From positions 62,001 to 126,000 of the forward strand of contig NZ_JACJON010000039.1 of NCBI RefSeq assembly GCF_014695585.1: a DNA stretch of 64,000 nt. The letters are read 5' to 3'. Below are positions 789 to 37,072 of this stretch, in pieces; the stretch's first letter is position 1; each line of letters begins with the position of its first letter. Both the position numbers and the translations under genes were made by a program. This stretch comes from Microcoleus sp. FACHB-831 (lineage in GTDB: Bacteria; Cyanobacteriota; Cyanobacteriia; Cyanobacteriales; FACHB-T130). The notes below the pieces were generated by a model that saw only the letters and a program-made list of their open reading frames with translations, made no database searches and was not told the DNA's origin.

Positions 789-1069
789 TGTTCAGCAATT
801 TCTCCTTGATGCTGGTTTGAGCCGCGAGGGTCGATTCTTATGGTCTGATGTTCTTTATCGCACTTGGACTTGTGCGCGAACATCTCAACTCAACAGGCCT
901 TGCCTAGTTGGGGGCGCGGTCTACTTAATGCTTAATTTTATTGAGTTTCTTTAATTATATGGAGTGACGGGCTGGAAAATCGGTTAAGGCTGCTCTAGGT
1001 AATTGTTAAGCGATCGCGGGGAAAGTCACAATAAAGGGAGCGCTTATTTATCGTCGCTAGATTTTGCTG

Positions 1070-1987: not shown

Positions 1988-1998
1988 GTTATCAACTA

Positions 1999-3336
1999 TC
2001 ACTTCAAAGTTCTTATCCCGCGTGGCAATTCGACGCGAAACGTAGAGCCTACCCCCAACTCGCTTTCTACCAAGATATCGCCGTTCATCATGCGAACTAA
2101 GCGATCGACAATAGCTAACCCTAAACCAGTACCGTTGCGATCGCGTGTCAGGAAGTGATTAACTTGGCGGAATTCCATAAAAATATTTTCCAAGTCAGAC
2201 TCAGCGATGCCGATGCCAGTATCTCTGACAGCTATCCCGACTTTATTTGAGGATAGTTCATAGACCTCAACGCACACGCTGCCAACGTCGGTGAACTTAA
2301 TCGCATTGGAGATAAGATTAATCAAAACCTGTCTCAGACGAACTTTGTCATTGACAACAGAAATCTTATCGCGATCGCACTTAAAAGACATTTCCAAATG
2401 CTTCTGAGTCGCCAGACTATGCAGTTCTTCAACCGTATCCGTCACCGTTTCAACTAGGTTAAACTCTTCCGGTTGGAGTTCCAGACTTCCCGACTCTAAC
2501 TTAGAGAAATTAAGGATATCCTCAATCAGCGTCAACAAATGTTTCCCACTGTTAAAAATCCGCTCCACCATATTTGCTTGGCGTTCGCCTAGCTGATTAT
2601 TCGGTTGGCGCAACAGCAGTTGAGAAAAACCCAAAATCGCATTCATGGGAGTACGCAGTTCGTGAGACATGAGGGCCAAAAACTGCGATTTCAGGCGCGT
2701 TATTTCTACCAATTCCAAGTTTTCCAGCTCATAAGAGCGAAGTTTTTCCTCGGCTTCCTTGCGGGCGCTGATGTCGCGTATCATCCAGCGCAGGGTAACT
2801 CCATCTCTGGTGTCGCCGACAGCAGCTACAGTCAAGGCAGCATCAAAATCCTTACTTCCAGGGCGTTTCAGCAGCACATCCCACTCCTGAACGCCGCTTG
2901 CGGTACGCAACTGCGTGAGATGGTTACGAAACGACCGACGGCACTCCTCAGCCACAAAAATGATTATCGGTTTGCCGACTATATACCTTTGCGAGACCCC
3001 AAAGAGAGAGGCGGCGGCGCGGTTGGCTTCCCAAATCTTTCCATTCGCATCTGTCACTAGGTATCCGTCTGGCGCAAACTCAAATAGCTCATGGTAGCGC
3101 TGGCGTTCTGCTTCCACTACTTCGCGCGTCGCTATTAATTCCTCATTTTGCTGGCGTAACTCCTCTTCAGCGACGTGCAGTTCTTCCAAAGCGGTTTGTA
3201 GTTCTGCCCACGATAGCGCCATCAGTTCTGTTTTGCCGCAGGGCGATTCCCTGACGTGCTGCTTTAGTGCTTCCGTCCTCTGCCGTGCAGCCTCTATCTT
3301 TTGAGTAAATTGGTCTGTTTGAAGGTGGGAAGTCAT
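1999..3336 (-). CDS. PAS-domain sensor histidine kinase
   Basis: Soluble-looking histidine kinase of 445 residues with no membrane segment. It has an N-terminal coiled coil (about 5-75, rich in EELRQQNEEL-type heptads) and a PAS domain (about 80-200) starting at the RYHELFEFAPDGYLVTDANG region. A HisKA domain follows, with phospho-acceptor histidine in FLALMSHELRTPMNAILGFS, then an HATPase domain with N box INLISNAIKFT, G1 DTGIGI and G2 GTGLGLAIV. All catalytic boxes look intact. It is the last gene of a minus-strand series that includes CheB-, CheR- and PAS-type proteins, so it is a plausible phospho-output partner for them. Signal and cognate regulator are unknown. A shared transcript is inferred only from orientation; the 482-base gap upstream argues for its own promoter. 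Confidence 0.9.
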   Translation of the reverse strand: MTSHLQTDQFTQKIEAARQRTEALKQHVRESPCGKTELMALSWAELQTALEELHVAEEELRQQNEELIATREVVEAERQRYHELFEFAPDGYLVTDANGKIWEANRAAASLFGVSQRYIVGKPIIIFVAEECRRSFRNHLTQLRTASGVQEWDVLLKRPGSKDFDAALTVAAVGDTRDGVTLRWMIRDISARKEAEEKLRSYELENLELVEITRLKSQFLALMSHELRTPMNAILGFSQLLLRQPNNQLGERQANMVERIFNSGKHLLTLIEDILNFSKLESGSLELQPEEFNLVETVTDTVEELHSLATQKHLEMSFKCDRDKISVVNDKVRLRQVLINLISNAIKFTDVGSVCVEVYELSSNKVGIAVRDTGIGIAESDLENIFMEFRQVNHFLTRDRNGTGLGLAIVDRLVRMMNGDILVESELGVGSTFRVELPRGIRTLK

Positions 3337-3818
3337 ATCGGTTTGATGTTAAACTCTACGATCGCCAAGTTGCAGTTTGACCAAGTTAGAAAATAAGATT
3401 AGCGAAAACGCTTCAAACCAGCAGGTAAAATACACAAAGATTTTCACTTTTAGATTCAACTGCCGGGGAATTGGCTCGCTAGCGTCAGCGAAGCGAAGTG
3501 CATCAGCACGTTAGCGCAGATCGCATCCAGCCGCTGCCTAGAAGAATTTGGATGCCTTTACATCCCGGAGTCAGCAAGGGCTGACGTTAGTCACCAACAT
3601 TGTGACCCACTACAATTCAACGGCGCGGTAGTACTGATAGATTTGGGAAATAATGCGATCGCTCTTAAAGTTTGCCAAGTGCAACTGTGGTCAATATAAG
3701 GGACACTATTCTCTGATAGCAATAACCACTACACTTATGAATCCGCTTTGAGACTGATAGAAACTAAACTAAAGTCTGAATATATTTTTGAGGCGATCCC
3801 GGCGACAATGCCACAACG
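3337..3818. other. Intergenic spacer, 482 bases
   Basis: Lies between the PAS kinase and the PAS/coiled-coil gene, both on the minus strand. It carries a short repetitive block (about 3481-3520) built on AGCGTCAGCGAAGCG, and a related block occurs near 49750, so this is a dispersed cyanobacterial repeat. A plus-strand frame is open for 82 codons (3454-3699) but has no usable start and no recognised homology. No tRNA, convincing promoter or terminator was seen. Confidence 0.5.
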
Positions 3819-4388
3819 CTAATTTTCCTTCTCAATCAACAAAATTACGCCATAAATCTCCGTTTTTGCCATTAGGGGTGAAAGGGTGACTTTACACTTA
3901 ATCTTCCTACCACAACGATTTATAGCCTCCAGCGTTACTTGGCGATCTTGCGCCTTTCCTGCTAGGCATAGGCAAATGCGCTGTCTGAGTTCCTCCACTG
4001 GCAAGCCAATATCCAAATGCATAAAATTAGAAGCCTTAACTTCTTCGCTCCGCAGCCCCCACAAATCCTCCGTCTGGTGGTTCCAAAGCTGGATGTGCAA
4101 ATCTCTATCCACAACTACGACAGCAATTTGCAAACTAGCCAAAATAGTCTCTAACAACCCGTTCGCTTGGCACAATGCGTCCTTGTGCTGATGCAGTTGT
4201 TTGTTATCTATTAAAAGCTCATCCTGGCTCGTCTCCAGTTCTTGGTTGGTTGCATGCAGCTCCTCTGTGATAGTTTGCAGTTCTTGATGTGCGGCGAACA
4301 GTTCTTCTTTTTTATGCTGCAATTCCTGATTTTTTAACTGTAATTGTTCGATAGAGTTTCGCAGTTCCCTTTTAAACGTTTCTATCAT
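3819..4388 (-). CDS. PAS/coiled-coil protein, partial paralogue of the CheR-PAS C-terminus
   Basis: About 189 residues from an ATG at 4388-4386; the frame is open to a TTG at 4463. The N-terminal half is a heptad coiled coil with EELHATNQELETSQDEL. The C-terminal half is a PAS fold with [24 protein letters not shown] and [12 protein letters not shown]-like segments. These match the last 230 or so residues of the adjacent CheR-PAS protein closely, so it probably arose by tandem duplication followed by loss of the CheR catalytic part. It has no methyltransferase, kinase or receiver domain and could only sense or dimerise, perhaps with the CheR-PAS protein. It may be a decaying fragment, but the frame is intact. 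Confidence 0.65.
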   Translation of the reverse strand: MIETFKRELRNSIEQLQLKNQELQHKKEELFAAHQELQTITEELHATNQELETSQDELLIDNKQLHQHKDALCQANGLLETILASLQIAVVVVDRDLHIQLWNHQTEDLWGLRSEEVKASNFMHLDIGLPVEELRQRICLCLAGKAQDRQVTLEAINRCGRKIKCKVTLSPLMAKTEIYGVILLIEKEN

Positions 4389-4632
4389 ATAGTTCTGATA
4401 GTGAAAATAGTGTTGAGAATAGTCATCTTGCCTGATGCGTACTTGGTGAGTTAATAGGGGCAAAATAAATTTCCCCCACTTCCCTTTACTCTTCTTTTCC
4501 CAAAGCTATAATACTCATCCAAAACTACCTTAAACCCCTGGTTTTTTGGCAAGATTGAAAGCGTTTACATATGTTATTGCCACGCCATCAATTGCCGTTG
4601 CAAAGTTTCTAGGGTTGTAATAATCTCTGCGT

Positions 4633-6567
4633 TCATTCAGAATCTCCATTCTGCTCATCCATCACCAAAATTGCTCCCCTAATCTCTGTGTTTATCCCCA
4701 GCAAAGGCGTACAGCTAACTTTGCACTGAATCGTCCTACCGCGCCGATTTATGGCATCAAGCATAATGTAATGATATGAGTATTCCCCTACTAGGCAGCC
4801 GCGAATGAGCTGTCTGAGTTCCTCGACGGGCAACCCAATATCCAAATTCAAAAAGTGCTGTCCCTGGACTTCTTCGCTCCGCAACCCCCATAAATCTTGA
4901 GCTTTGTAGTTCCAAATCTGGACGTGGAAATCGCGATCCACCACTACGACTCCGCCGCGCAGGCTGGTCAAGATAGACTCTAAAAATGCATTAACTTGGT
5001 TGAGTTCTTCACTGCGTCGGCGCATTTCATCGTTTACCGCCTGCAATTCTTCGTTAGTCGATTGTAGTTCTTCATTCATAGTCTCCAGCTCTTCATTAGA
5101 AGATTGCAGCTCCTCATTTGTTGTTTCTAACTCTTCATTGCTGGACTGTAGTTCTTCGTTAGTTGTCTCTAACTCTTCATTGGTCGCTTGGAGTTCCTCA
5201 TAAGCCATTTCTAGCTCTTGGTTTGATTGTTGCAAATCCTCCTGTAGCCGTTTGTAGCGGGTGACATCGGTGAAGGAAATAGCGATGCCCAGCAGATTGG
5301 TGTTAAATTCCTGTAGAGGTGTGAACTGCACCTCTAGATAAATGGTGTCGCCACTGAGGGTTTTTACTTGAATATCCTTCAAGTTCACCACTCGCCGTTC
5401 GCTGTAGGCTTGTTCGATGCAGGAGCGCAACTCTAGGGGACGATAAGAAATTTCTAAATCTTGCAAAGGTCGGCCCACATCGTTGGCATTTAGGTTAAAC
5501 ATCCCTCTAGCAATCGTGTTTGCCAACACCAGAAAGCCATTAACATCTACAATTACTTGAGCGACTGGACTGCTATCGAATGCGGCTTCAAGAATACGAG
5601 TGCGCTCTGATAGAGTGCTAGCTAAGTCCCTATCGTCAGTCTGTGCCATAAGCAACAAGCGATCGCGCATACTTATCTTCGCCACTTTGGAAAACACGCG
5701 CCGCTTTAAATCTACTGGTGTAAATGTATTTGTGTAGGTGAGCAACATCTCTGCTTTGCCCAAAAATAGAAACCCTTGTTCGTTGAGCGCAAAGTGAAAG
5801 CGGGCAACTATTTTGGATTGGGTTTCCGCATTAAAATACATCAGAGTGTTGCGGCACACTAGCAAGTCAACGCGGGGAATTGGGGCATCAACTGTTAAGT
5901 TGTGACGCCCAAAAATTACCGAACGGCGCAGATCTTTACGAAAAGTGTAGTAGCGAGGAGTAACGCGCCCAGGCTGTAGCTCCCAAGAATTTTCAACCTC
6001 TGCGGGAGCCGTTTGGTTAACGTTGATGACTTCATATGGCTCGAAATACTTTTCGAGCATTTCCTGGGGAATGTTTGCGAGATCCTTATATGAGTAAATG
6101 GCTTGTCGTGCTTGAAGCAAAGCTTCCTCATCCAATTCGGTAGCGTAAATTTTCACTCGCTCGCGAAACTGTTCTAACCCCAGCACCTCGGCGATTACCA
6201 TCGCTATTGTGTAGGCTTCTTCGCCGCTTGCACATGCTGCGCTCCAAACTCGGATGGGTTCGTGAAGTTGCTTGCGAGCGACAATGAGTGGAATAATTTC
6301 TTCCTTAAGGTAGTCCCACGTTGAGCGATCGCGGAAGAAGGAAGTAACGTTTATTAATAAGGTATTAAACAGGTGTATGTATTCATCGGGATGCACTTCC
6401 AAATAGTCTACATAACTACTGTAGGTGTCAATTTCTACCGTCTGCATTCTTTTGTTTACTCGACGCATCAAGGTCGAACGTTTGTACCCAGTGAAGTCAA
6501 AACCCCTGCTGCGTTTTAGGTAATCCAGCAGAGTTTCAAACTCTGGGTTGAGATTCGATATAGTCAT
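4633..6567 (-). CDS. CheR-type protein methyltransferase fused to PAS domains
   Basis: 644 residues. The N-terminal 270 or so are a CheR methyltransferase: an all-alpha CheR_N segment ([20 protein letters not shown]), the NVTSFFRD motif, the SAM-binding [17 protein letters not shown], and [13 protein letters not shown]. Next comes a PAS domain (about 310-430). A long 14-residue-periodic coiled coil follows, built on [14 protein letters not shown], then a second PAS domain at the C-terminus with [13 protein letters not shown]. CheR enzymes methylate receptor glutamates using SAM. No methyl-accepting chemoreceptor is in the window, and CheR-PAS proteins of this build usually travel with CheB and histidine kinases, as here. 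The CheB gene lies just upstream on the same strand (gap 90 bases), suggesting an operon. Confidence 0.9.
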
Positions 6568-6657
6568 AGGAAATTAATGATTAATAATTGCCCAATTGTT
6601 TAACGTTGATTATCCATTGATATTAACTATTAACTCTAGGGCGTAAACTTTTTAATT

Positions 6658-8319
6658 TTATTTTTGACTCGCCATGCTTACCAAAACAGCAGCAATTTCA
6701 TTTAATGGTAAAATCGCATCCACCAGATCGGTATCAATGGCTGCTTGCGGCATTCCAAACTCTTCGGAAGATGCTCTATCCTGAGCGATCGCCCTTCCGC
6801 CCATTTTTTTGATCGCTCTCAAACCGCTAGCACCATCCTTACCTTTGCCAGTGAGGACAACGGCGATCGCCCGCTCTTTAAAACTAGCCGCAACAGATTC
6901 AAATAGTAAGTCAGCACTTGGACGGGAAAAATTCACCAATTCTGACTTGGACAGGGAGATGGTCTTGTCAGAGTTGACAAGTAAATGATTATTGGGAGGA
7001 GCGATGTATACTGTCCCCGGAAGCAATAAATCTCCTTCAACAGCCTGCTTAACCTCAAGAGAAGTTCGACGGCTTAATATCTCAGCTAGTTGACTGGCGT
7101 AGTTGGGGTCTAGGTGCTGTACGATAGCGATCGCTGCGGGAAAGTTTTTTGGCAAGGCAGACAAAAGTTCGGTTAAAGCCTTCAACCCTCCGGCAGATGT
7201 AGCGATCGCAACTAAGTTAATAGTCGCTTGAACGTTGGAAGTTAAGGAATTATCCTTTAACTTACCATTGCTCGTATGCCCATCAGCGCTAATATTGCTT
7301 GGCTGCCCTTGTTGGGTTTCCTGCCTTACATCGATGGTACCTTTCATCAGCAAATCCCGGATGATGGCGGCGTTCAGTTCGGCATCCTTTGCTTGGTCTT
7401 CATAACGCGCGGCTGACAAAATTTGCTGGCGATCGCGTGCCCTTTTCAACAGCCGATGCGACAGAGTCGCACGCTCCTCCAGCGCCCTAAAAGCATTCCA
7501 CAATGCTGTTTCTAAGGCTTCAGATTGCTCTGCGAGCAGAGTATCTGCTGAATAGGCGTGACCAGTACGACAGCGGAAGCGGATCAGTTCTCCTTCACGC
7601 AGTTCCCAAAGTGCGCCCCCGCAGTCTGGACAGCCAAACCCTGAAGGCTTTCCAGGTCTTTTATCTTTATTTGCAGCAGCTATATCGAACTTTGCCATAT
7701 CAACCTCCATTTGCATATCACCCGATGGGGGGTCTGCTTCTTCGCCGTCCACTGGCTCTTCAGTTAAGCTTATCAATCGCGAAGCGATCGCGGTTATGGG
7801 CAAAATACTATCTACATCTACATTTTCGATAGCGCTGGTTGGCATCCCCGTAAACATCGCCTCTGCGGGGTCCTGGACGATTGCTACTCCGCCTCGTTGT
7901 TTCACGGCTACGAGTCCGGCAGTTCCATCATCAAGAGCGCCGGATAAGACTACCCCAACCACTCGCCGCCCGTATACTCTAGCTGCCGAGCGAAACAGGG
8001 GATCGACTGCTGGGCGGTGGCTGTTCTCTCTGGCGCTTCGTGCTAGAGTAACGCATCCCTGTTTGACGAGCAGGTGGTAATCGGGTGGAGCGACGTAGAT
8101 TTGCCCATTCTCAATCTTTGCCCCTTCTTGGGGGTGGCAAGCTCTCAAAGAGCCAGCGCGGGTAAGGATAATTGGGAGAACGCTCTTGCTGTGTGAGGGA
8201 ATGTGGACAACTATAAATATTGCCGCAGGCAACTCGGCGGGCAAATTTTTAACCAGGTTAATAAGTGCTTCTACGCCCCCTGCGGAGGCTCCAATGACGA
8301 TAATATCGTGGCGGGGCAT
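6658..8319 (-). CDS. Double-domain CheB methylesterase (CheB-CheB)
   Basis: 553 residues with two CheB catalytic domains and no receiver. Domain 1 (about 1-195) shows GASAGG with Ser12, VVHIPS with His39, and SGALDDGTAG with Asp131, the expected Ser-His-Asp triad. A linker of about 170 residues carries a zinc-ribbon-like CPDCGGALW...CRTGHAYS segment. Domain 2 (about 367-550) repeats the pattern with ATSAGG, VQHLDP and LTGKGKDGASGL. CheB hydrolyses glutamyl methyl esters. Lack of a receiver means it is not phospho-regulated in the usual way. The pairing with the downstream CheR-PAS gene suggests reversible methylation of an unidentified partner. Confidence 0.9.
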   Translation of the reverse strand: MPRHDIIVIGASAGGVEALINLVKNLPAELPAAIFIVVHIPSHSKSVLPIILTRAGSLRACHPQEGAKIENGQIYVAPPDYHLLVKQGCVTLARSARENSHRPAVDPLFRSAARVYGRRVVGVVLSGALDDGTAGLVAVKQRGGVAIVQDPAEAMFTGMPTSAIENVDVDSILPITAIASRLISLTEEPVDGEEADPPSGDMQMEVDMAKFDIAAANKDKRPGKPSGFGCPDCGGALWELREGELIRFRCRTGHAYSADTLLAEQSEALETALWNAFRALEERATLSHRLLKRARDRQQILSAARYEDQAKDAELNAAIIRDLLMKGTIDVRQETQQGQPSNISADGHTSNGKLKDNSLTSNVQATINLVAIATSAGGLKALTELLSALPKNFPAAIAIVQHLDPNYASQLAEILSRRTSLEVKQAVEGDLLLPGTVYIAPPNNHLLVNSDKTISLSKSELVNFSRPSADLLFESVAASFKERAIAVVLTGKGKDGASGLRAIKKMGGRAIAQDRASSEEFGMPQAAIDTDLVDAILPLNEIAAVLVSMASQK

Positions 8320-15193: not shown

Positions 15194-16033
15194 TGGCCGA
15201 ACTCTCCCTCCTCCTTACCACAAGTTGCCATAACACCAATTGCCAGTCATCAACCACTAGGAAGATGAGCAAGTTTTCCGGACTTGTTAGTTCTAAATTT
15301 GTGTTAAAACTTTTACATTTTTTTAATATTTGTACGTGTAGCCTTCTTAATCTCTTGTTTGTTCTCAGATAAAGCTACTTTACTTTTAAATTTACAGTTA
15401 TGCGATCGCATAATTAAAAGAGCAGCTAAGTTAATAACAATTCCTTATTTTAAATAAATTAATTTATGGATAAATACTTGATTTAAATAACGCAATGCCA
15501 TAATATAGTAATTGTATTTGTCTAAATAAATGTTGTCTTAAAACAGGTAGTTGGAGCGCAAGGGACGATCGTCCCTTGCGCGGGGTCTAAAAGTTTAACA
15601 GGCAAGTTTAGTAGAGTAGCCCCAAATCAAAACTTAGCCTAAAAAATTTAATTAACCTGTATAAATTTTAATTAAATTAAAACAAACTAACTGCCTTAAA
15701 TAATGTCGCCGTGTAGATTTAATTATTGAGATATCTAATCCAACATTAGCAAAGCTTTGCTACGTTACATATCACTTTTATAAAACCCTTACACGCCAAA
15801 AGACTTAGCATTAGCAATATACTCCTCAAAATCCATCCTAGAAAACGGGAATTTTATGTGGAGGGGGCTTGGGGGACGCACCCGTCCCCCAATGGGGGGT
15901 TTGGGGGGAGACCCCCCAATTCCAGGTTTTTCCTACTATTGGCAACAGCTAATTTACGCAGCCGTCCCCCAACGGGTGGCTTGGGGTGAGACCCCCCAAT
16001 TCCAGGTTTTTCCTAATATTGGCAACAGCTAAT
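15194..16033. other. Intergenic region, 840 bases, AT-rich with repeats
   Basis: Separates the two paralogous kinase genes. The middle (15300-15800) is AT-rich with no credible gene on either strand. It holds a 26-base perfect palindrome and, at the right end, an 80-base tandem duplication; both are listed separately. No clear sigma-70 promoter can be singled out. Confidence 0.6.
15556..15581. repeat. 26-base perfect palindrome
   Basis: GCGCAAGGGACGA followed by its exact reverse complement, centred on CGATCG with no spacer. Perfect symmetry over 13 bases per arm. It could form a cruciform or hairpin or be a binding site for a dimeric protein. There is no T-run, so it is not a typical terminator. 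Confidence 0.85.
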
Positions 16034-16036
16034 TTA
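15877..16036. repeat. Two tandem copies of an 80-base repeat
   Basis: Copy 1 is 15877-15956 and copy 2 is 15957-16036, with an exact 80-base period and only a few mismatches. Each copy contains CGTCCCCCAA, GACCCCCCAATTCCAGG and TTGGCAACAGCTAATTTA. Each can fold through its GGGG and CCCC tracts. Copy 2 ends precisely on the stop codon of the CHASE3 kinase (TTA on the plus strand at 16034-16036). Confidence 0.9.
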
Positions 16037-23506: not shown

Positions 23507-23856
23507 GTGCTACTCCCTTCCCTCCATAAGATTACCTATTTCTTCTTTTTTCTTTCTTCGCGGTTCATTAGACCTCTTGCAAAAGCCGAAATTACCCCCC
23601 TTAATCCCCCCTTGGTAAGGGGGGAAAAACTTGAAATCTTGCCCCTCCCCTTACTAAGGGAGAAAAACTCGAAATCTTGCCCCTCCCTTTACTAAGGGGG
23701 GAAAAACTCGAAATCTTGCCCCTCCCCTTACTAAGGGGAGGGCTGGGGAGGGGTCATTCATGGATTTTTGCAAGCCGTCTATTAATAAGAATTATTCTGG
23801 TGGTAAGAAAGTAATTCTCCCCTTCTCCCCAAACTCCGGACTCCGGACACTTACCT
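23507..23856. other. Intergenic region with tandem repeat
   Basis: 350 bases after queG. It contains three copies of a 38-39-base unit (listed separately) and related CCCCCTTAATCCCCCCTTGG sequence upstream of them. No gene on either strand is credible. Confidence 0.6.
23624..23740. repeat. Three tandem copies of a 38-39-base hairpin unit
   Basis: Each unit reads GAAAAACTCGAAATCTTGCC then CCTCCCCTTACTAAGGGG with small changes; the anchor GAAATCTTG starts at 23633, 23671 and 23710. Within each unit CCCCTT and AAGGGG can pair. This type of repeat is scattered between genes in filamentous cyanobacteria and varies in copy number. Confidence 0.8.
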
Positions 23857-24543: not shown

Positions 24544-24750
24544 ATGAAACGAACCTTTACTGCAAGCGTATGGCAAGAAGGTAGCTGGTTTGTGGCACAG
24601 TGCTTAGAAGTTGATATTTGCACTCAGGGAGAGACTGAAGCTTCTGCGCTGGCTAATCTTGGTGAAGCTTTATCACTGCATTTTGAGCCACCATTAGCCA
24701 CTATAACTCCCCAAGTGAGGACGTTGGAGGTAGAGGTCGGTGCCGCTTAG
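24544..24750 (+). CDS. HicB-type antitoxin
   Basis: 68 residues with the HicB/UPF0150 fold: FTASVWQEGSWFVAQCLEVD and TQGETEASALANLGEALSLH, the partial RNase-H-like pattern of HicB antitoxins. No DNA-binding tail is added, so this is a short form. It overlaps the following HicA-like toxin gene by 11 bases, antitoxin first, which implies coupled translation. The toxin would cleave mRNA and be neutralised by this protein. Confidence 0.85.
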   Translation: MKRTFTASVWQEGSWFVAQCLEVDICTQGETEASALANLGEALSLHFEPPLATITPQVRTLEVEVGAA

Positions 24751-24961
24751 ACCACTACCTTACCGCGAAGTTAAACGCAAATTAGAGGCAGCGGGATTTG
24801 GGGAAGTAAGTCAAAATGGCAGCCACGTAAAGTTTGCTAAATATACGGATGAAGGAACGCGCACTGCCATAGTGCCTCGTTATAGAGAAGTTACTGTCGG
24901 TACGCTTGGCAGTATTTTAAGGCAAGCTGGGATAAGTGCTGATGAGTTTGAGGCGTTGTAA
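24740..24961 (+). CDS. HicA-type mRNA interferase toxin
   Basis: 73 residues. Double-stranded-RNA-binding-like HicA fold: PYREVKRKLEAAGFGEVSQN, GSHVKFAKY with the catalytic-type histidine after GS, and VPRYREVTVGTLGSILRQAG, the typical C-terminal helix. The start is a GTG at 24740 inside the end of the antitoxin gene. Length and motifs are complete, so it is likely functional. Confidence 0.88.
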   Translation: MPLRPLPYREVKRKLEAAGFGEVSQNGSHVKFAKYTDEGTRTAIVPRYREVTVGTLGSILRQAGISADEFEAL

Positions 24962-25052: not shown

Positions 25053-25319
25053 TTACGGAAAGTACCTATACATATCCTTTCTGTGCAGTACCCTGACAAA
25101 GATAGCCGTTTCCGACTCCAAACTAATACCAATTCTGTAGTCTCCCACCCTAATTCGGTAATATGTACCGTCCGCCTTCAGTTTTTTAACATTCCTGACA
25201 TTACCAATATTATCGGCGCTTTCCACTTCTTCAATGGCTATTTTAATTCTTTGAAGTAAAGAACTATCTTGGATGTTTGCTAAGTCTTTCTCAAAGCTTT
25301 TCCTAAAGTCTATATTCAT
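25053..25319 (-). CDS. ParE/RelE-family toxin
   Basis: 88 residues: FRKSFEKDLANIQDSSLLQR, then NVKKLKADGTYYRIRVGDYRIG and AIFVRVLHRKDMYRYFP. This is the compact beta-sheet fold of the RelE/ParE superfamily, with the typical L-(K/R)-G-x-x-x-x-R-I-R-x-G-D-Y-R pattern and a terminal HRKDMYR. RelE members cleave ribosome-bound mRNA and ParE members poison gyrase; sequence alone does not decide which. The ATG overlaps the antitoxin stop (ATGA, 25316-25319), so it is coupled to it. Confidence 0.88.
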   Translation of the reverse strand: MNIDFRKSFEKDLANIQDSSLLQRIKIAIEEVESADNIGNVRNVKKLKADGTYYRIRVGDYRIGISLESETAIFVRVLHRKDMYRYFP

Positions 25320-25525
25320 GTCTGACTATCCAGCATCTTGAATATCGCCTCTTTGCTCACTGAATCTGTATTTTCACCTTCTTTTATGGCATTTTCTAAC
25401 GCTATATCTTCTATAGCTTCTGCTAACAGCTCAGAAAACATTTCTTTTTCTTCTTTGATTATCTCAATGAGAGCTATCTTAAGCATATCTTTGAGTTTAC
25501 TTTCATCTATCAATATTTCATCCAT
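25316..25525 (-). CDS. Antitoxin partner of the ParE/RelE toxin
   Basis: 69 residues, very acidic (EIIKEEKEMFSELLAEAIED, KEGENTDSVSKEAIFKMLDS) and predicted mostly helical. No classic DNA-binding motif is obvious. Assigned from size, charge, position directly upstream of the toxin and the four-base overlap of stop and start. Similar acidic helical antitoxins accompany RelE genes in cyanobacteria. Confidence 0.75.
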   Translation of the reverse strand: MDEILIDESKLKDMLKIALIEIIKEEKEMFSELLAEAIEDIALENAIKEGENTDSVSKEAIFKMLDSQT

Positions 25526-25647: not shown

Positions 25648-28600
25648 CTAATCTTCTAATAATTTCTCTCTAATCCAACCGACGATATCTGTAACTAAAT
25701 TCGGCTGGCTGGGGGAGAAGGATTGTAGGGGAATATCGGCTTGGCTGCTGACTACACAAATTCTCGCCACGTTATTAAATTTGCTCAGAGATTTGAGGAA
25801 ATTTGGGCTGAATCCTTGGCTCAGTTCGCTAGTTGCAACCTCGTAAAAAATTAGGAAGACTCCCTGGCATTTTAGCTGACAATAAACTTTGAGAGCTTGC
25901 ATGGTTTCCGGTTCCCCATTCTGACGTTCGGGACAGCCTTGCATTACCATTTCGGCGTATATTTCCGAGGCGGGGTTATCTGGATTCTCGAATTTGCTGC
26001 CTTCGATGCAAATTAGCTGCATTTTACCCATTAACTCGGAGTTGCTATCAATAGCAGCGTGAAGGAGTTCGGGTAATTCACCTAAATTAAGGCTAAGGCT
26101 GGAGGGAGTGAAACCAACACCTGTGGTTTGTGGCACTTCGGGATGGGATGCGAACGATGAGCCATGCCAAGCTTGATAAAATTTGGGGTAAGGCATCTCT
26201 TGAGCGCAGCGCCAAATAACTTTGTAGCAATTTTTGTAGAGGTCAAAATTGGTTTCATAGACCTCATCTGTGAGGCAATGTTGTAAAGCTGATACAACTG
26301 AAGGCATCTGGTCATTTTGCACAATTTTACCCAAACTTTCAGCGGCACTACTACGGGTATCATCATCTTTTGTTGTTTCCAGAATTCTGACTAAAGCCGC
26401 GATCACCGCATCGTTGCCCGTGCCAATTTTACCCAAACTTTCAGCGGCGCTCCTACGAGTAAAATAATCTTCAGTAGTTTCCAGAATTCTGACTAAAGCC
26501 GCGATCGCCGCATCGTTGCCCGTGCCAATTTTACCCAAACTCTCAGCGGCACTCTTACGGGTATCATCATCTTTTGTTGTTTCCAGAATTCTGACTAAAG
26601 CCGCGATCGCCGCATCGTTGCCCGTGCCAATTTTACCCAAACTTTCAGCGGCTCTCCACCGTGTATCATCATCAGTAGTTTCCATAATTCTGGCGAAAGC
26701 CGCGATCGCTAGTGCGTTTCCACTCCCAATTGCACCCAAAGTTTCAGCGGCTCTCCAACGGGTAGAATCATCTTCAGTAGTTTCCATAATTCTGACTAAA
26801 GCCGCGATCACCGCGTCGTTGCCAGCGCCAATTTTAGTCAAAGTTTCAGCGGCTCTCCAACGGGTATCATCATCTTTTGTAGTTTCCAGAATTCTGATTA
26901 GAGCCGCGATCGCTAGTGTGTTTCCACTCCCAATTGCAACCAAACTGTCAACGGCAATCCAACGGGTCTGATTATCTTTTGTAGTTTCCAGAATTCTGAC
27001 GAAAGCCGCGATCGCCGCGTCGTTGCCCGTGCCAATTGCACCCAAAATTTCAGCGGCACTCTTACGGGTAGAATCATCTTTTGTAGTTTCCAGAATTCTG
27101 ACGAAAGCCGCGATCGCCGCGTTGTTGCCTGGGTCAATTTTACCCAAACTTTCAGCGGCTCTCCAATGGGTAACATCATCTTCAGTAGTTTCCAGAATTC
27201 TTGCTAAAGCCGCGATCGCTAGTGCGTTTCCACTCCCAATTGCACCCAAAGTTGCAGCGGCTCTCCAACGGGTAGAATCATCTTCAGTAGTTTCCAGAAT
27301 TCTGACTAAAGCCGCGATCGCCGCGTCGTTGCCCGTGCCAATTGCACCCAAAGTTGCAGCGGCACTCTTACGGGTAAAATCATCTTTTGTAGTTTCCAGA
27401 ATTCTGACGAAAGCCGCGATCGCCGCGTCGTTGCCCGTGCCAATTGCACCCAAAGTTGCAGCGGCACTCTTACGGGTAAAATCATCTTTTGTAGTTTCCA
27501 GAATTCTGACTAAAGCCGCGATCGCCGCATCGTTGCCCGTGCCAATTTTACCCAAACTTTCAGCGGCAATCCTAGGGGTAGAATCATGTTCAGTAGTTTC
27601 CAGAATTCTGACTAAAGCCGCGATCGCAGCTTGTTTGCCTGAGCCAATTTCACCCAAACTTCCAGCGGCTCTCCTACGGGTATAATCAGATTTTGTAGTT
27701 TCCAGAATTCTGATTAAAGCCGCAATCCCCGCTTGGTTGCCTGGATCAATTTTACCCAAAATTTCAGCGGCACTGCTACGGGTATCATCATCTTCAGTAG
27801 TTTCCAGAATTCTGACTAAAGCCGCGATCGCTATTGCGTTCCCACTCCCAATTTTACCCAAAATTTCGGCGGCACTGCTACGGGTAAAATAATCTTCCTT
27901 ACTTTCCAGAATTCTGACTAAAGCCGCGATCGCCGCCTCGGTGCCCGTGACAATTTCACCCAAAATTTCGGCGGCACTGCTACGGGTAAAATAATCTTCC
28001 TTACTTTCCAGAATTCTGACTAAAGCCGCGATCGCCCCGTCGTTGCCCGTGCCAATTTTACCCAAACTTTCAGCAGCTTCCCTACGGGTATCATAATCTT
28101 CAGCAGTTTCTAATAAGTCAATTAATTTGTTAACGGCTATAGCATAGTTAGTTTGCAACACTGCTGCTCTGGCTCCCTCTACAATCGGATAGAGAAATGT
28201 TCGCCACTGTTGTTCTTCAATGTTGAAATGACCAAACCCCAATTTAATGATTAGCACCACAATTTCATCTGCTTTGGCACAATCTTTAAACTCGGCAATC
28301 CCAGCAGCAGCTATAAAATAGGCTCGATACCAATAAAATGCTTTGCAACTATCCTCAAAATCCACTAATTCCTGGATAAACTGCTCTTTCTGCTGCCTTT
28401 CTACATCCGATCGCCCCAGCCACAGCAAAATTACCTGTTTCCAATGCGGCTCAAAAATGCGGTAATTACCCCGATCTGGGTTGTGGGGAATATGATTTAG
28501 AAAAAAGTGCCAATCGTCAACAGCCAACGCCGCGAAATATTCCTGAAACGTGGGATGGAAAAAAGCATAAACCGCGCGATCCGAATCTTCTTCCTCTGCT

Positions 28601-30210
28601 GATGCCAATCCCACCCGATTTAGCCATCCCAGCTTCAGCGCCAATGCCAACAAATCGGAACGCTCTTTAAATACCCGATCTACAAGGCATTGCCGCAGCC
28701 GAAACCGGGATATAACCTCCCCGGTTTTCGTGTCTTTGTCTTCACCATCCAGCGCCCTCAGTGCCAGTTCTCCCAATGCCTGAGTTAGCTGCTGTTGTTG
28801 CACTGGCTCAATTGCAAACTCATCCTTCAAATTGTAGAAAGCTTCCACAAATCGTTGATAAAGTCCCGCCTTGGTATCCGGCAATTTGCTGCCATTTTTC
28901 CAAGTGCGGCACAACAAAGCTAACCTGAGCGGATTTTTGACGAGATCGTTGATGCGTTGCTGGTTCGATTGTGCTAACTCTCGCAGCAAACCCTCACACT
29001 GCTGGTTATCTGCAAACCACTGGTAAATAAATTCCTTAACCTGCTTCTGATCAAAATCCAAATTGCGATAAACATCAAAATCCCGCAGGGCGTTTTTGTC
29101 CGCATCCCAGACATTCAGCCGACAGGTTAGCACCACGCGCACCTTATTTGCCCAACCCTCCGCCAACTGCCGATTAATTGCCGCTAACGGAGAAGCAACA
29201 GCCATTTCATCCACGCCATCCAACAGCAGCCACACATCGCCACTTTTCAGCAATTCCTCAAACGCTGTTGAGTATTCCGACGGTGCAGCTTTCAGAGTTC
29301 CCGCAGCATCGCGCAGCCAACCTTCTAGCAAAAACTCCCCCAGAGTTTTGCTACCAATATCCGCGAGGCGAATCAAAATCGGCACCCCCAGATTTTGCTC
29401 TAATATCCACTTAGCAATTTGGTAGCAGAGGGTAGTTTTCCCCGCACCCGGTTCGCCAGTAATTGCCAAGCGGCGTCCCTGGCTGTTTTTGCTTTGTCGT
29501 TGGCGCAAGACTTGTTCAAAAAACTCGTTTGGCTGGTTATAAGTCTTGGTGATTTGTGTCTCTGCAAGTTGGTAAAACCGCGAACCCTCCTCTGGCGATA
29601 CATCATCCCCGTGTCGAATTTCCTCTTTCGGCTTCGGTTCCACCAATCCCAGCGGCACATAGAAGTCAACGTGGTTAGAGGTGAGGGGATTATTTAGGAG
29701 GCGCTTTTGGTTGTCGAGGCGAGTTTCGCACACTTCGCGCCAGTTGATGTTATCGGGTGCTGATGTAGATGATGTTTCTACAAACGTCGCTTCTAACTTT
29801 TTAGACTTATCCGGTCTTTTGCGCTCCCAGTCTAGCTCGAATTCCCTCAGATTCGCTTCTTTATCCTTACCCCACAGCTTCAGGGTAAAGTGCCAGTCTT
29901 CTTCCCCTTGAGTCTTAGCGCGATTATCCTCGACAATCCCCAAAAACTTTTTGAGATGGTGGTTGATAGCTTGCCGAATTTGAGTTGTGGTTAATTTACC
30001 TGGATATTTGTCTTTCTGTGTCAAATATTCCAGAACCCTCAGCTTGGTTTCCACGACTAGCTGAGGGTTGGCGCTATCCTCACCCTGCCATCTGAAATGC
30101 AGTTCTAAACCTTCGCACCCTTCAACTTCGTAATTGACAAAAGCCAGCAACGCCTCTAGCAGACGCTTCACCCGTGCTTTTACTTCAGGGCCATAAGTAG
30201 CTTTCGGCAT
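25648..30210 (-). CDS. NACHT-domain STAND ATPase with about 18 HEAT-like repeats
   Basis: 1520 residues. The N-terminal 145 or so carry a conserved domain I recall from other cyanobacterial STAND proteins (LTTTQIRQAINHHLKKFLGI, DWHFTLKLWGKDKEAN). NACHT ATPase at about 245-560: Walker A GEPGAGKTT at 252-260, Walker B VWLLLDGVDEM at 326-336, then RVVLTCR. A helical region with FFHPTFQEYFAALAVDDW follows. Next come about 18 tandem 34-residue HEAT/PBS-lyase-like repeats (about 700-1303) of the pattern AIAALVRILETTxDDxTRxx, AAESLGKIGTGNDA. The C-terminal 210 or so hold CAQEMPYPKFYQAWHG and an alpha/beta-like domain. NACHT proteins are NLR-like switches and many bacterial ones act in phage defence. 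A role here is inferred from neighbouring toxin-antitoxin pairs. Confidence 0.9.
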   Translation of the reverse strand: MPKATYGPEVKARVKRLLEALLAFVNYEVEGCEGLELHFRWQGEDSANPQLVVETKLRVLEYLTQKDKYPGKLTTTQIRQAINHHLKKFLGIVEDNRAKTQGEEDWHFTLKLWGKDKEANLREFELDWERKRPDKSKKLEATFVETSSTSAPDNINWREVCETRLDNQKRLLNNPLTSNHVDFYVPLGLVEPKPKEEIRHGDDVSPEEGSRFYQLAETQITKTYNQPNEFFEQVLRQRQSKNSQGRRLAITGEPGAGKTTLCYQIAKWILEQNLGVPILIRLADIGSKTLGEFLLEGWLRDAAGTLKAAPSEYSTAFEELLKSGDVWLLLDGVDEMAVASPLAAINRQLAEGWANKVRVVLTCRLNVWDADKNALRDFDVYRNLDFDQKQVKEFIYQWFADNQQCEGLLRELAQSNQQRINDLVKNPLRLALLCRTWKNGSKLPDTKAGLYQRFVEAFYNLKDEFAIEPVQQQQLTQALGELALRALDGEDKDTKTGEVISRFRLRQCLVDRVFKERSDLLALALKLGWLNRVGLASAEEEDSDRAVYAFFHPTFQEYFAALAVDDWHFFLNHIPHNPDRGNYRIFEPHWKQVILLWLGRSDVERQQKEQFIQELVDFEDSCKAFYWYRAYFIAAAGIAEFKDCAKADEIVVLIIKLGFGHFNIEEQQWRTFLYPIVEGARAAVLQTNYAIAVNKLIDLLETAEDYDTRREAAESLGKIGTGNDGAIAALVRILESKEDYFTRSSAAEILGEIVTGTEAAIAALVRILESKEDYFTRSSAAEILGKIGSGNAIAIAALVRILETTEDDDTRSSAAEILGKIDPGNQAGIAALIRILETTKSDYTRRRAAGSLGEIGSGKQAAIAALVRILETTEHDSTPRIAAESLGKIGTGNDAAIAALVRILETTKDDFTRKSAAATLGAIGTGNDAAIAAFVRILETTKDDFTRKSAAATLGAIGTGNDAAIAALVRILETTEDDSTRWRAAATLGAIGSGNALAIAALARILETTEDDVTHWRAAESLGKIDPGNNAAIAAFVRILETTKDDSTRKSAAEILGAIGTGNDAAIAAFVRILETTKDNQTRWIAVDSLVAIGSGNTLAIAALIRILETTKDDDTRWRAAETLTKIGAGNDAVIAALVRIMETTEDDSTRWRAAETLGAIGSGNALAIAAFARIMETTDDDTRWRAAESLGKIGTGNDAAIAALVRILETTKDDDTRKSAAESLGKIGTGNDAAIAALVRILETTEDYFTRRSAAESLGKIGTGNDAVIAALVRILETTKDDDTRSSAAESLGKIVQNDQMPSVVSALQHCLTDEVYETNFDLYKNCYKVIWRCAQEMPYPKFYQAWHGSSFASHPEVPQTTGVGFTPSSLSLNLGELPELLHAAIDSNSELMGKMQLICIEGSKFENPDNPASEIYAEMVMQGCPERQNGEPETMQALKVYCQLKCQGVFLIFYEVATSELSQGFSPNFLKSLSKFNNVARICVVSSQADIPLQSFSPSQPNLVTDIVGWIREKLLED
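26330..28110 (-). repeat. 102-base tandem repeats coding the HEAT solenoid
   Basis: About 18 head-to-tail 102-base units inside the NACHT gene, one (near 26660) shortened by a codon. Conserved blocks such as CCAGAATTCTGACTAAAGCC and CCCAAACTTTCAGCGGC recur with few changes. Near identity over this length indicates recent expansion or gene conversion. Differences concentrate in the codons for the DDx-TRxx and ES/AT/EI positions. Confidence 0.92.
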
Positions 30211-31019: not shown

Positions 31020-31229
31020 ATGAACGATAAACTGGTTGAATCGATATATCAAGTAATTATGTCTCTTTCAAAGGAAGAGCAAGACTTATTAAAAGATAAA
31101 CTACTTTTTGAATTCTCCCAACCATCAACAACTGACTTAATGCAGGTTGCTCAAAATAGTGGCTCGTTTAACTTTCTGCATGATGAACCAGATCTATACA
31201 CCCTTGAAGACGGAGAACCTATATCGTGA
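31020..31229 (+). CDS. Antitoxin partner of the MazF-type toxin
   Basis: 69 residues: VESIYQVIMSLSKEEQDLLK, then QVAQNSGSFNFLHDEPDLYT and an acidic end. This is the form of small cyanobacterial antitoxins with a MSLSxEEQ-type helix and an acidic tail that wraps the toxin. Its stop overlaps the toxin's GTG start by four bases (31226-31229). No DNA-binding fold can be claimed. Assignment rests on context and composition. Confidence 0.75.
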   Translation: MNDKLVESIYQVIMSLSKEEQDLLKDKLLFEFSQPSTTDLMQVAQNSGSFNFLHDEPDLYTLEDGEPIS

Positions 31230-31567
31230 ACAAGGGAGATATTGTTTTAGTACCATTTCCCTTTACTGATTTGAGTCAATCCAAGCTACGTCCTGCTTTA
31301 GTGCTGTGGGCAGATCCAGCAGGAAATGATGTCACGCTATGCTTTATTTCATCTCAAAACACTACCAGTTTAAGTCCAGGTGAATTTGCCCTAGATCCTT
31401 CAGATCCAGAGTTTCAAGGAACTGGATTGCGGCTTTTGTCTAAAGTAAGAGTAACTCGCATTGTGACTATTGAGCGTAGATTGATTACAAGACGCTTAGG
31501 CAAATTAGGAATTAATCAAATCCAGCAATTGAATGTAGTTATGATAAAAGCATTTAAACTTACATGA
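31226..31567 (+). CDS. MazF/PemK-family mRNA interferase toxin
   Basis: 113 residues: GDIVLVPFPFTDLSQSKLRPALVL with the family's conserved arginine-proline after the loop, VTLCFISS, and a C-terminal KVRVTRIVTIERRLITRRLG. These mark the CcdB/MazF beta-barrel fold, an endoribonuclease cutting mRNA at short sites. The GTG start sits in the end of the antitoxin gene (translational coupling). The pair is bracketed by two direct copies of a 120-base dispersed repeat. Confidence 0.88.
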   Translation: MNKGDIVLVPFPFTDLSQSKLRPALVLWADPAGNDVTLCFISSQNTTSLSPGEFALDPSDPEFQGTGLRLLSKVRVTRIVTIERRLITRRLGKLGINQIQQLNVVMIKAFKLT

Positions 31568-31740: not shown

Positions 31741-32322
31741 CTACAAATCTTCCTCTTCATAATCAGAAGTATCAAACAATTGACCTGCTGCTTTTACCAC
31801 TAATATTTCCTTCGCTTTCTCCAAATACGGATCTTCCAAATCAGCTTCATTCTCCAGCTTCATTCCCTCAATAAAAAAGTGGTCAAATCCGCGATTCATT
31901 TGCCGTCCGCGCATCGTATGTTTATCCAGCGCATAGTCAGGAATCTCCAGACGCGGTAAATCGCCCATGTAATAATTCACCGTTGCATGATCCACGATGC
32001 GCGATTTCTTTGCACGTACCACCAGCAAAATCCCATGAACTAAAAACAACCGTTCCGGATTGTGCTTTTCATCCTTCTTCTTGCGCTGCGCTACCCACAT
32101 TTGATACAGCGACCAAATAACTGCTGGTAACATCGGTTCAGCTAATCCAATATCCTCAGAAACGATAATTCTTATCCGTTTCCAGACATACTCCCCATAA
32201 CCACTTTTATCGAGTTCCGTTCCCCAATAAAGCGCCTCTTCTTCCAATCCGCGTCGAATTGATTTCTGGAAAGCAGAAGCCACTTCCGAAAAAGCGTAGC
32301 CGTTAGTCGTTTTCAACAACAT
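31741..32322 (-). CDS. Stand-alone MgsA/RarA C-terminal-domain protein
   Basis: 193 residues without an ATPase domain. It resembles the C-terminal tetramerisation region of the clamp-loader-like ATPase RarA/MgsA: FSEVASAFQKSIRRGLEEEA, LYWGTELDKSG, RIRIIVSEDIGLAEPMLP, and near the end DYALDKHTMRGRQMNRGFDHFF, all landmarks of that domain. Full RarA is about 430 residues with an AAA+ N-terminus, which is absent here: no Walker motifs, and the upstream DNA does not encode them. It may modulate RarA or recombination at stalled forks, or form complexes of its own. Function is inferred from the domain only. Confidence 0.75.
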   Translation of the reverse strand: MLLKTTNGYAFSEVASAFQKSIRRGLEEEALYWGTELDKSGYGEYVWKRIRIIVSEDIGLAEPMLPAVIWSLYQMWVAQRKKKDEKHNPERLFLVHGILLVVRAKKSRIVDHATVNYYMGDLPRLEIPDYALDKHTMRGRQMNRGFDHFFIEGMKLENEADLEDPYLEKAKEILVVKAAGQLFDTSDYEEEDL

Positions 32323-35950: not shown

Positions 35951-37072
35951 ATGCCGCTTACAGCTTGGATTGATGATGAAAAAGTGTTGGCTCCTCTAGT
36001 ATCAGATGAGGATTGGGAAGCTTGGAAGAATCAGCGCGATATAAAAATAAGTTTGGCTTGTTGTAAGTCTTCTGGCTTCCTACGCAACTCTAAACTTGGA
36101 ACTAAGCATTTTGTACACAAATGCAAAACAGGGTGCAATTGGAAGCCAGAAACTCAAGAGCATCTTTTAGCTAAAAGCGAGATTGTAAAAGCTTGCTTAG
36201 AAGCAGGGTATGAAGCTGACACAGAAGTTTCTGGTTTAGACTGGCGTGCTGATGTTTTAGCTAGTAAAGGCAAAGTTAAAATTGCTTTTGAGATTCAGTG
36301 GAGCCCTCAAACTTTACAACTAACTCAAGAGAGGCAGACAAAATATAAGCGTGATGAAATTAGAGGTTGCTGGCTTTTCCGAAAACTCCCTAGCTCTAAG
36401 GCAAGTAAAGAATTGCCGATGTTTGAGTTAGCTTTAAATTCTAATAACAAATTTGTTGTACACATTCCTACTCAAGATATAAATAACAAAAGAAGCCTTT
36501 CGTTAGAAAATATTTCACTCTCTGAGTTTATTAAAAGTTTATTATCAAAAAAAATTAAATTTTGCGAGTCTTATGTTTCTATAAAAGAACAAATAACTTA
36601 TCTAAGCTTCTTTTCAGTAAAGTGTTCGCAATGCAATAAACCATATCACGTTTACATGGTACAAGAAACTTTTATTGTTAGTAAGAGTTTATGCGGTATC
36701 GACGTAAACATACCTCATTATTCAAATTATGGGAAAAAACTTTGTCTTGATAAACCTTTTGTTTTTGCCTCTGAAATTGTTAACTTTGCCAGATTTATTT
36801 CCAAAGAAAATAAAAATATAAACATGGGTGAAATTAAATCTCGTTACAAACACAATAAGTGGAACAACTGGTTATCTTTTGGTTGTCATTGGTGCGATGC
36901 AATTTTGCCTTATCATCCAGACTATTATAATAAATGCAAAACTAAGCACTATAGCTATTTATGCACATCTATGGCTTACTGCATAAAAGGCTTAAAGCCT
37001 TCCGAGCAAATTTTTAACAAAGATTTGGGAGGACATTGGTGTTATCCCAAAGACGAAAATTTTTGCACTTAA
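35951..37072 (+). CDS. CoiA-like putative nuclease
   Basis: 373 residues. The first half fits the competence-protein CoiA family: a Cys-rich start, EHLLAKSEIVKACLEAGYEAD, then WRADVLASKGKVKIAFEIQW, where Asp and Glu-x-Gln sit as in restriction-endonuclease-like cores, then RQTKYKRDEIRGCWLFRK. The second half has two CxxC zinc-type motifs (CSQCNKPYHVY, CHWCDAILPYH). CoiA proteins act in DNA processing during natural transformation. In this setting it is a cargo gene of a tRNA-Thr-bounded insertion. The gene is clearly AT-richer than its neighbours, a sign of transfer. No integrase motif is present. Confidence 0.7.
   Translation: MPLTAWIDDEKVLAPLVSDEDWEAWKNQRDIKISLACCKSSGFLRNSKLGTKHFVHKCKTGCNWKPETQEHLLAKSEIVKACLEAGYEADTEVSGLDWRADVLASKGKVKIAFEIQWSPQTLQLTQERQTKYKRDEIRGCWLFRKLPSSKASKELPMFELALNSNNKFVVHIPTQDINNKRSLSLENISLSEFIKSLLSKKIKFCESYVSIKEQITYLSFFSVKCSQCNKPYHVYMVQETFIVSKSLCGIDVNIPHYSNYGKKLCLDKPFVFASEIVNFARFISKENKNINMGEIKSRYKHNKWNNWLSFGCHWCDAILPYHPDYYNKCKTKHYSYLCTSMAYCIKGLKPSEQIFNKDLGGHWCYPKDENFCT

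Follow-up and report, generated by a model that had tools for sequence, protein, structure and literature searches.

Effector-associated domains (EADs) are described as coupling domains, further copies of which sit on effector or signalling proteins (PMC7159879), and the EAD STAND and ternary conflict systems carry EAD4 at the N-terminus of a STAND protein (Kaur et al. 2020, PMC7159879; PMC8195603). Among fungal NLRs, HET-E and HNWD of Podospora combine a NACHT engine with repeats that turn over, differ in number and concentrate their variation on a presumed binding surface, and NLRs of high internal conservation show a repeat identity above 85% over at least 100 aa (PMC4986451). A NACHT ATPase is likewise present in the antiphage protein bNACHT25 (PMC12169576), while alphaRep binders, with HEAT-like repeats, one variable face and a variable repeat number, have six randomised library positions per repeat (PMC3754942), and in the Bell/BASS amyloid signalosomes of filamentous bacteria an NLR has as its neighbour a small, effector-like protein whose C-terminus is rich in N, T and F (PMC7889193, PMC8086366).

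We analysed a stretch of 64,000 nucleotides from Microcoleus sp. FACHB-831 (hereafter the window, whose first letter is position 1), in which a single uninterrupted ORF encodes a protein with the Pfam domain string EAD4-NACHT-HEAT-NCC-H-NCAB1 (Table 1). The ATPase motifs GEPGAGKTT and LLLDGVDEM are recognisable by eye in the protein sequence, and the NACHT domain with its Walker A and Walker B motifs lies between an N-terminal domain and C-terminal repeats, the arrangement that defines NLR-like STAND proteins. An NLR/STAND architecture of the gene is thus supported at the sequence level, from which we infer ligand-driven oligomerisation and an immune output. An earlier note on this DNA had described one gene joining a conserved N-terminal domain, a NACHT ATPase, about 18 repeats and a C-terminal alpha/beta domain. 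This layout is borne out, with NCAB1, following NCC-H, as the C-terminal domain; the note had missed both the identity of the N-terminal domain as EAD4 and the absence of a second EAD4 match from the genome. With bNACHT25 the protein has the NACHT ATPase in common, whereas its N- and C-terminal domains differ; the match to EruA (NCBIfam) is partial (7.8e-15, 54 bits against a cut-off of 1000), and PADLOC returned only partial matches for the gene.

Table 1. Features of the window, array comparisons and loci with a TGA junction in relatives
Feature	Position or locus	Strand	Evidence or values
Whole gene, NLR-like STAND protein	25648..30210	-	1520 aa, ORF and Pfam
EAD4 (effector-associated domain 4), aa 7-130	29821..30192	-	Pfam PF19959, 6.8e-39
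NACHT ATPase, aa 246-401	29008..29475	-	Pfam PF05729, 1.2e-9, above cut-off
Post-NACHT region, aa 402-690	28141..29007	-	Matches in relatives
HEAT-like unit 1, degenerate, aa 691-726	28033..28140	-	
HEAT-like units 2-18, aa 727-1303	26302..28032	-	TRF, Pfam HEAT_2 4.8e-103, modelled helical hairpins
NCC-H (NACHT C-terminal Cys/His motif), aa 1321-1349	26164..26250	-	Pfam PF22730, 3.2e-16
NCAB1 (NACHT C-terminal alpha/beta domain), aa 1381-1515	25666..26070	-	Pfam PF22724, 3.3e-41
RelB-like antitoxin, 122 bp downstream of the gene	25316..25525	-	Pfam PF25734, 3.2e-16
ParE-type toxin	25053..25319	-	Pfam PF05016, 6.3e-11
HicA-type toxin	24740..24961	+	Pfam PF07927, 2e-14
DUF7387 ORF, HicA partner	24544-24750		Pfam PF24113, 2e-7
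PemK/MazF-type toxin	31226..31567	+	Pfam PF02452, 7.1e-14
69-aa ORF ahead of PemK/MazF-type toxin	31020-31229		No Pfam match
Array pair, 8 and 12 units	L035/L036		Identity within arrays 0.70, 0.80; between 0.56
Array pair, 12 and 11 units	L062/L063		Identity within arrays 0.85, 0.73; between 0.68
Array pair, 12 and 10 units	L036/L041		Identity within arrays 0.80, 0.85; between 0.77
Array pair, 8 and 12 units	L038/L057		Identity within arrays 0.73, 0.82; between 0.57
Array pair, 12 and 8 units	L036/L038		Identity within arrays 0.80, 0.73; between 0.59
Array pair, 12 and 14 units	L036/L046		Identity within arrays 0.80, 0.72; between 0.72
Array pair, 16 and 14 units	L040/L046		Identity within arrays 0.82, 0.72; between 0.73
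50 TGA loci	L035-L041, L044, L046, L047, L049, L051, L052, L057, L117-L133, L136, L139, L142-L144, L146-L159		
TGA junction before NB-ARC-TPR receptors or other NACHT protein	L184-L189		

The same note had placed the gene between toxin-antitoxin pairs, and Pfam agrees, assigning toxin-antitoxin-type genes to both sides (HicA/DUF7387, RelB-like/ParE and a PemK-type toxin). Elsewhere in the window lie a CoiA-like competence protein with a nuclease domain (35951-37072, Pfam 5.1e-11), a protein with two PHROG matches that weakly resembles the MgsA C-terminus, below the Pfam cut-off (31741-32322), and two tandem repeats with C/G runs found by TRF (39 bp x 3.4 at 23608-23738 and 80 bp x 2.0 at 15876-16036). 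A second, partial NCAB1 match occurs in a 169-aa ORF of the same genome (G000:C36:208257-208424; L003, L076), in the surrounding 8.4 kb of which no NACHT match was found; this ORF is a possible remnant of a relative.

TRF placed the repeat array at 26322-28110, with a period of 102, 17.6 copies and 84% matches. Units 2-18 have 34 aa apiece, except unit 15 with 33 aa, and a search of the 6.42 Mb genome with the consensus of the units gave 18 matches, all within the window gene, so the array is present once. The count of 18 tandem repeats in the earlier note therefore stands, but its description of them as almost identical in DNA does not, as units 2-18, compared in pairs, are on average 82% identical in DNA and 69% in protein, the latter to be set against the 85% threshold of the fungal NLRs, and only a few pairs (7/8, 9/14, 8/11 and 7/11), several of them non-adjacent, reach 96-99% in DNA. 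Distance along the array barely affects likeness (83.5% identity at lag 1, 80.2% at lag 7). Because the near-identical units 7, 8, 11 and 9, 14 are partly non-adjacent, the array appears to have grown through several rounds of local duplication or conversion and not in a single recent amplification. In a structure model of aa 641-1520 (mean pLDDT 71, 10 alignment rows), helical hairpins run along the whole array, and the NCAB1 region is of low confidence. Foldseek matched the model to importins, CAND1, spliceosomal U2 snRNP chains and an alphaRep; the array thus has both sequence and fold matches to alphaReps, from which the window protein differs in being natural.

The most variable unit positions are 15, 18, 19, 23 and 26, in helix B, together with 29 and 32; nearly no silent change occurs within the same codon at 15, 18, 23 and 26, while 29 and 32 do have some. 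The clustering on helix B fits the sites named in the earlier note, which had not extended to 29 and 32. Since the alphaRep library positions avoid picking sites by their own variability, we chose them as a mask, mapped to unit positions 14, 15, 18, 19, 22 and 26 by way of V20-R21 of alphaRep, which we take to correspond to T16-R17 of the window unit. We compared 21 arrays with at least 6 units, including that of the window (its unit 1 dropped). The six face positions vary more than the rest in all 21, with permutation p<0.05 in 19 (not L035 and L053), and pN/pS is likewise higher at the face than at the rest in 21/21 arrays, exceeding 1 at the face in 11 of them; in the window array, the two values are 3.01 and 0.69, and the mask shifted by 5 gives 3.73, above the true mask, with shifts by 1 or 33 also giving more than 2, which counts against the reading favoured below. 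The variability profiles of relatives correlate positively with that of the window in 16/16 arrays (Spearman, p<0.05 in 15/16, not L053). In the structure model, the face positions sit on the second helix of each hairpin, and the face-bearing helix is predicted at positions 14-27 (unit 2). The proposal of the earlier note that one face of the solenoid varies is therefore upheld, as regards most of the variation, by the positions, the alphaRep sites and the model; the minimum-change counts (see below) do not support the further step to positive selection as opposed to relaxed constraint with repeat turnover.

We found no close strain for comparison, the best segments being 43-54% identical and the strong matches outside the own genome 47-59%. 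Among the relatives, however, there are 12 pairs with a NACHT DNA identity above 90%, of which 7 could be evaluated; among the others, L067 has no array and the array of L043 is cut by a contig end. In L062/L063, the DNA identity is 88% in the N-terminal part, 91% in the NACHT domain and 92% in the C-terminal part, but 69.6% in the array. In 5 of the 7 pairs, the mean identity between arrays is lower than both means within arrays, while the two pairs with L046 are unclear, the between value being level with the lower within value (0.72) in L036/L046 and lying between the two in L040/L046 (Table 1). The arrays of relatives thus change more rapidly than the sequences on either side of them, although some of the pairs compared may be paralogues. 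The earlier note would have abandoned its idea of an adaptable recogniser had all relatives carried the same repeats; because the arrays differ strongly in repeat number and sequence among relatives with 90-93% identical ATPase DNA, at the level of related genomes rather than strains, this objection fails. The behaviour resembles that of the Podospora NLRs (PMC4986451), from which the window protein differs in its bacterial type and its HEAT units; length differences and signs of concerted evolution are seen here at the level of comparisons between genomes. At the DNA level, the C-terminal part of the window gene is 79-81% identical to those of L062, L063 and, over 471 bases, L060. The EAD4 of L060 is a more distant one, and neither L062 nor L063 has an EAD4 listed, which suggests that C-terminal domains can stay while N-terminal domains swap. 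In another relative (L054:7665-10697), the N-terminal domain joins the NACHT region beyond the P-loop, the alignment starting from residue 241 of the NACHT query, which indicates an internal deletion with loss of the ATP-binding part.

The core component of the window system bears an EAD, as in the EAD conflict systems (PMC7159879, PMC8195603). However, the own genome (85 contigs, 99.44% complete) has no second EAD4 at E <= 0.001, and no MoxR-vWA partner is present among the nine neighbouring ORFs scanned. Because the assembly lacks a second EAD4, the domain would act alone or via a partner without EAD4. EAD4 is patchy, being present in 110/291 genomes of the order, 77 of which have a single match and 33 two or more (hand count). 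We scanned 29 EAD4 proteins besides our own, the best of well over 100 places, with about 1.5 kb on each side, so that many of the loci are truncated. Most belong to STAND ATPase families: 14 match NB-ARC and 13 NACHT, both being possible in one protein, and a few carry other partners, namely a TPR region or coiled-coil-like or unassigned regions. The 24 families listed for these 29 proteins include no caspase, trypsin, TIR or nuclease, and we dropped the idea of an enzymatic effector on EAD4 proteins for this sample, in which EAD4 chiefly forms the N-terminal end of STAND receptors. Nor do we claim EAD4 as a winged helix, a reading of the alignment whose model has a mean pLDDT of 46 from 2 sequences; searching the PDB with an EAD4 profile returned three matches, of which the best has E 0.13. 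At one locus (L074; ORFs 460-4062, 4016-4735 and 6103-8103), a 240-aa EAD4 ORF overlaps a 1201-aa ORF in which a P-loop can be recognised by eye; a PtuA-like ATPase gene (match below cut-off) is close by, and the locus is possibly a two-gene EAD4 system in a defence neighbourhood.

We favour, with a probability of roughly two in three, the reading that the window gene encodes an NLR-like STAND receptor with a HEAT recogniser diversified by recombination. The HEAT superhelix, together with NCC-H and NCAB1, would use the helix B face and the adjoining loop to bind a ligand, for which a protein of phage or other foreign origin is most likely; binding would open the NACHT switch, ATP-driven oligomerisation would cluster the N-terminal EAD4 domains, and this cluster would start an output that is probably abortive. 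The diversity would most likely come from unequal exchange and gene conversion among the 102-bp units, since near-identical units are non-adjacent and arrays are mostly more like themselves than like their counterparts. We rejected a diversity-generating retroelement as its source, as no reverse transcriptase (RVT_1) match was found in the own genome and the variable bases of the array are not confined to A. It is also conceivable, if rather doubtful, that the turnover is neutral, with tandem repeats recombining and homogenising unaided, exposed positions drifting and no diversifying selection involved. HEAT-like repeats naturally vary at exposed positions (PMC3754942), and because the alphaRep variable positions track this natural variation, part of the variability of the face would be seen in any HEAT array of this kind. 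Moreover, minimum-change counts at the face show no excess over neutrality in any of 13 arrays (18 nonsynonymous and 3 synonymous changes in the window, P=0.62), so constraint at the face may simply be relaxed. Against neutral turnover speak the frequency-weighted pN/pS of the window face (3.0 vs 0.69 at the rest), for which a bootstrap over units puts the 2.5% bound of pN minus pS at +0.083, and the pooled 13 arrays, with N:S of 264:50 at the face vs 405:250 at the rest (Fisher p=3e-13, in a test that ignores shared ancestry and the silent-site share, 0.13-0.20 at the face vs 0.24-0.26 at the rest). To call positive selection proven would be an overclaim given the minimum-change counts, and we rejected that wording: the helix B face is free to vary or diversified.

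The two other alternatives concern what the receptor is for. A STAND regulator of a host process such as stress, development or self/non-self recognition of filaments, rather than an antiphage receptor, would have a parallel in fungal NLR-type proteins, which serve in allorecognition and show comparable repeat behaviour (PMC4986451). This seems unlikely to us, as the patchy distribution of EAD4, the toxin-antitoxin genes in the neighbourhood and the fast turnover of the array fit conflict better than housekeeping. Less likely still is an orphan or decaying receptor that senses without acting because its EAD4-bearing executor was lost. The single EAD4 in a nearly complete genome would agree with this idea, since more copies are expected under the EAD principle (PMC7159879); however, the ORF is intact, the ATPase motifs are present, a lone EAD4 is the usual state of EAD4-positive genomes, and none of the four enzyme types named above is listed for the sampled EAD4 proteins.

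The relatives of the gene differ from it at the front end. In 14 of the 26 relative loci, no start codon lies close to the 5' end of the ATPase ORF; ahead of it, in the same frame, comes an ORF of 143-153 aa that ends at a single TGA. We searched 388 genomes of the order with locus P0002 read through the stop, scoring 3 candidates per genome and counting by hand, and found at least 35 places with exactly one stop, a TGA each time; the match begins within query residues 1-12 in 34 of them and at residue 52 in the remaining one. Among the matches listed none beginning that early is free of a stop, the stop-free ones beginning at residue 89 or later. Of 61 loci read directly (14 from the first 26 and 47 from the genomes), 50 have one stop, TGA in all, and 11 have neither a stop nor a domain start; these 11 align from query residue 88 onwards, and the four of them that were viewed in a wider stretch (L160-L163) carry a different sequence before it. 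The 50 TGA loci are not dereplicated between collections and come down to 30 after removal of neighbours at least 85% identical in a 120-base window. The base after the TGA is C in 48/50, with CTA or CTG as the codon in 43/50, and the third codon ends in CG in 49/50, compared with 14% ending in G among 2471 NCN codons (Ser, Pro, Thr) further downstream. A UGA followed by C is a leaky stop context. No in-frame ATG, GTG or TTG occurs at codons 1-21 after the TGA in 49/50 loci, the exception being L146 with GTG directly after it; many have one at codons 22-25, where translation may start, and a few have none for at least 100 codons. Since the stop is TGA in every case and a start is lacking within 21 codons in 49/50, the junction suggests programmed readthrough, which would yield an executor plus an executor-receptor fusion.

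On the other hand, a crude count over the first 24 codons after the TGA, made in the 14 loci except L052, gives 160 silent base vs 497 replacement codon differences and thus no hint that the protein is under constraint there; together with the conserved NCG codon, these counts fit nucleotide constraint near the stop and weaken the argument for translated codons. We found no convincing RNA structure around the TGA (mean single-sequence z -0.41, 30 loci), and a consensus fold of -3.46 was left unused since its shuffle control had zero variance. The small N-terminal domain has no Pfam match above cut-off, and its tails, such as QITIGQQHNTYN, look by eye like amyloid signalling motifs. By eye, the relatives resemble the Bell/BASS signalosomes (PMC7889193, PMC8086366), since a small protein that is effector-like and ends in an N/T/F-rich stretch adjoins an NLR; they differ in that both parts lie in one frame split by a TGA and the ATPase part is without a nearby ordinary start. 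In L043 and L053, a small ORF and a NACHT ORF have N/G/T/I-rich facing ends, which by eye are like those of two-gene amyloid signalosomes. Searches of open-access full texts listed no paper on a conserved TGA junction, judged by titles and the opening of abstracts, and an earlier description may exist. In the own genome, the junction pattern is at chance level, with 1 match vs 3 in a reversed control. Nor do EAD4 ORFs share the junction: none of 18 loci read shows it, and those of L092, L099, L166 and L171 end in TGA but have more stops soon after in frame.

In most loci, the TGA lies about 13-20 codons ahead of a conserved WRE(I/V)C motif, and in the window gene EAD4 and its linker run into the same motif (NWREVC) with no stop. 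Because the TGA junction and the EAD4 fusion meet the same motif, the engine seems to stay the same throughout the family, while the output modules at its front and the sensor arrays at its rear are exchanged. The junction also extends beyond the family. Across 386 genomes of the phylum, at least 20 places (hand count) run from the domain start through the junction, each with one TGA, and at least 10 of those 20 are the same as in the 388-genome search; one further match has its TGA inside the ATPase piece. Seven of the 20 junctions lead elsewhere, namely four to NB-ARC-TPR proteins (Pfam), a fifth to one alike by sequence (L186), one to another NACHT protein and one to a 32-aa ORF. Standalone ORFs with the small domain alone have 130-201 aa, and in a homologue on a plasmid the junction is replaced by an overlap of two annotated genes, the small one being a putative counterpart of the domain. 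Since the same domain and TGA precede both NB-ARC-TPR proteins and another NACHT protein, the junction behaves as a portable cassette. We consider it probable that the NACHT-HEAT family swaps output modules at a single site shortly before the WRE(I/V)C motif, the module being either an EAD4 fusion or a leaky-UGA cassette. In the leaky-UGA version, an effector-like small domain whose tail resembles an amyloid motif would stand in frame ahead of the stop, mostly UGA-CUR and then NNN-NCG, such that one gene would give many free executors and few executor-receptor fusions, and readthrough would fix how many soldiers there are per trigger. As it also precedes unrelated NB-ARC-TPR receptors, this cassette would be a portable recoding device of bacterial immunity.

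With the window gene, the rapidly evolving repeat sensors of fungal NLRs would have a counterpart in bacteria. As the HEAT/alphaRep scaffold binds chosen proteins once its variable face is randomised, the idea that the array determines the target is testable by array swaps. If functional, the TGA junction of its relatives would be a conserved, programmed stop-codon readthrough that sets the stoichiometry of receptor to executor in bacterial immunity.
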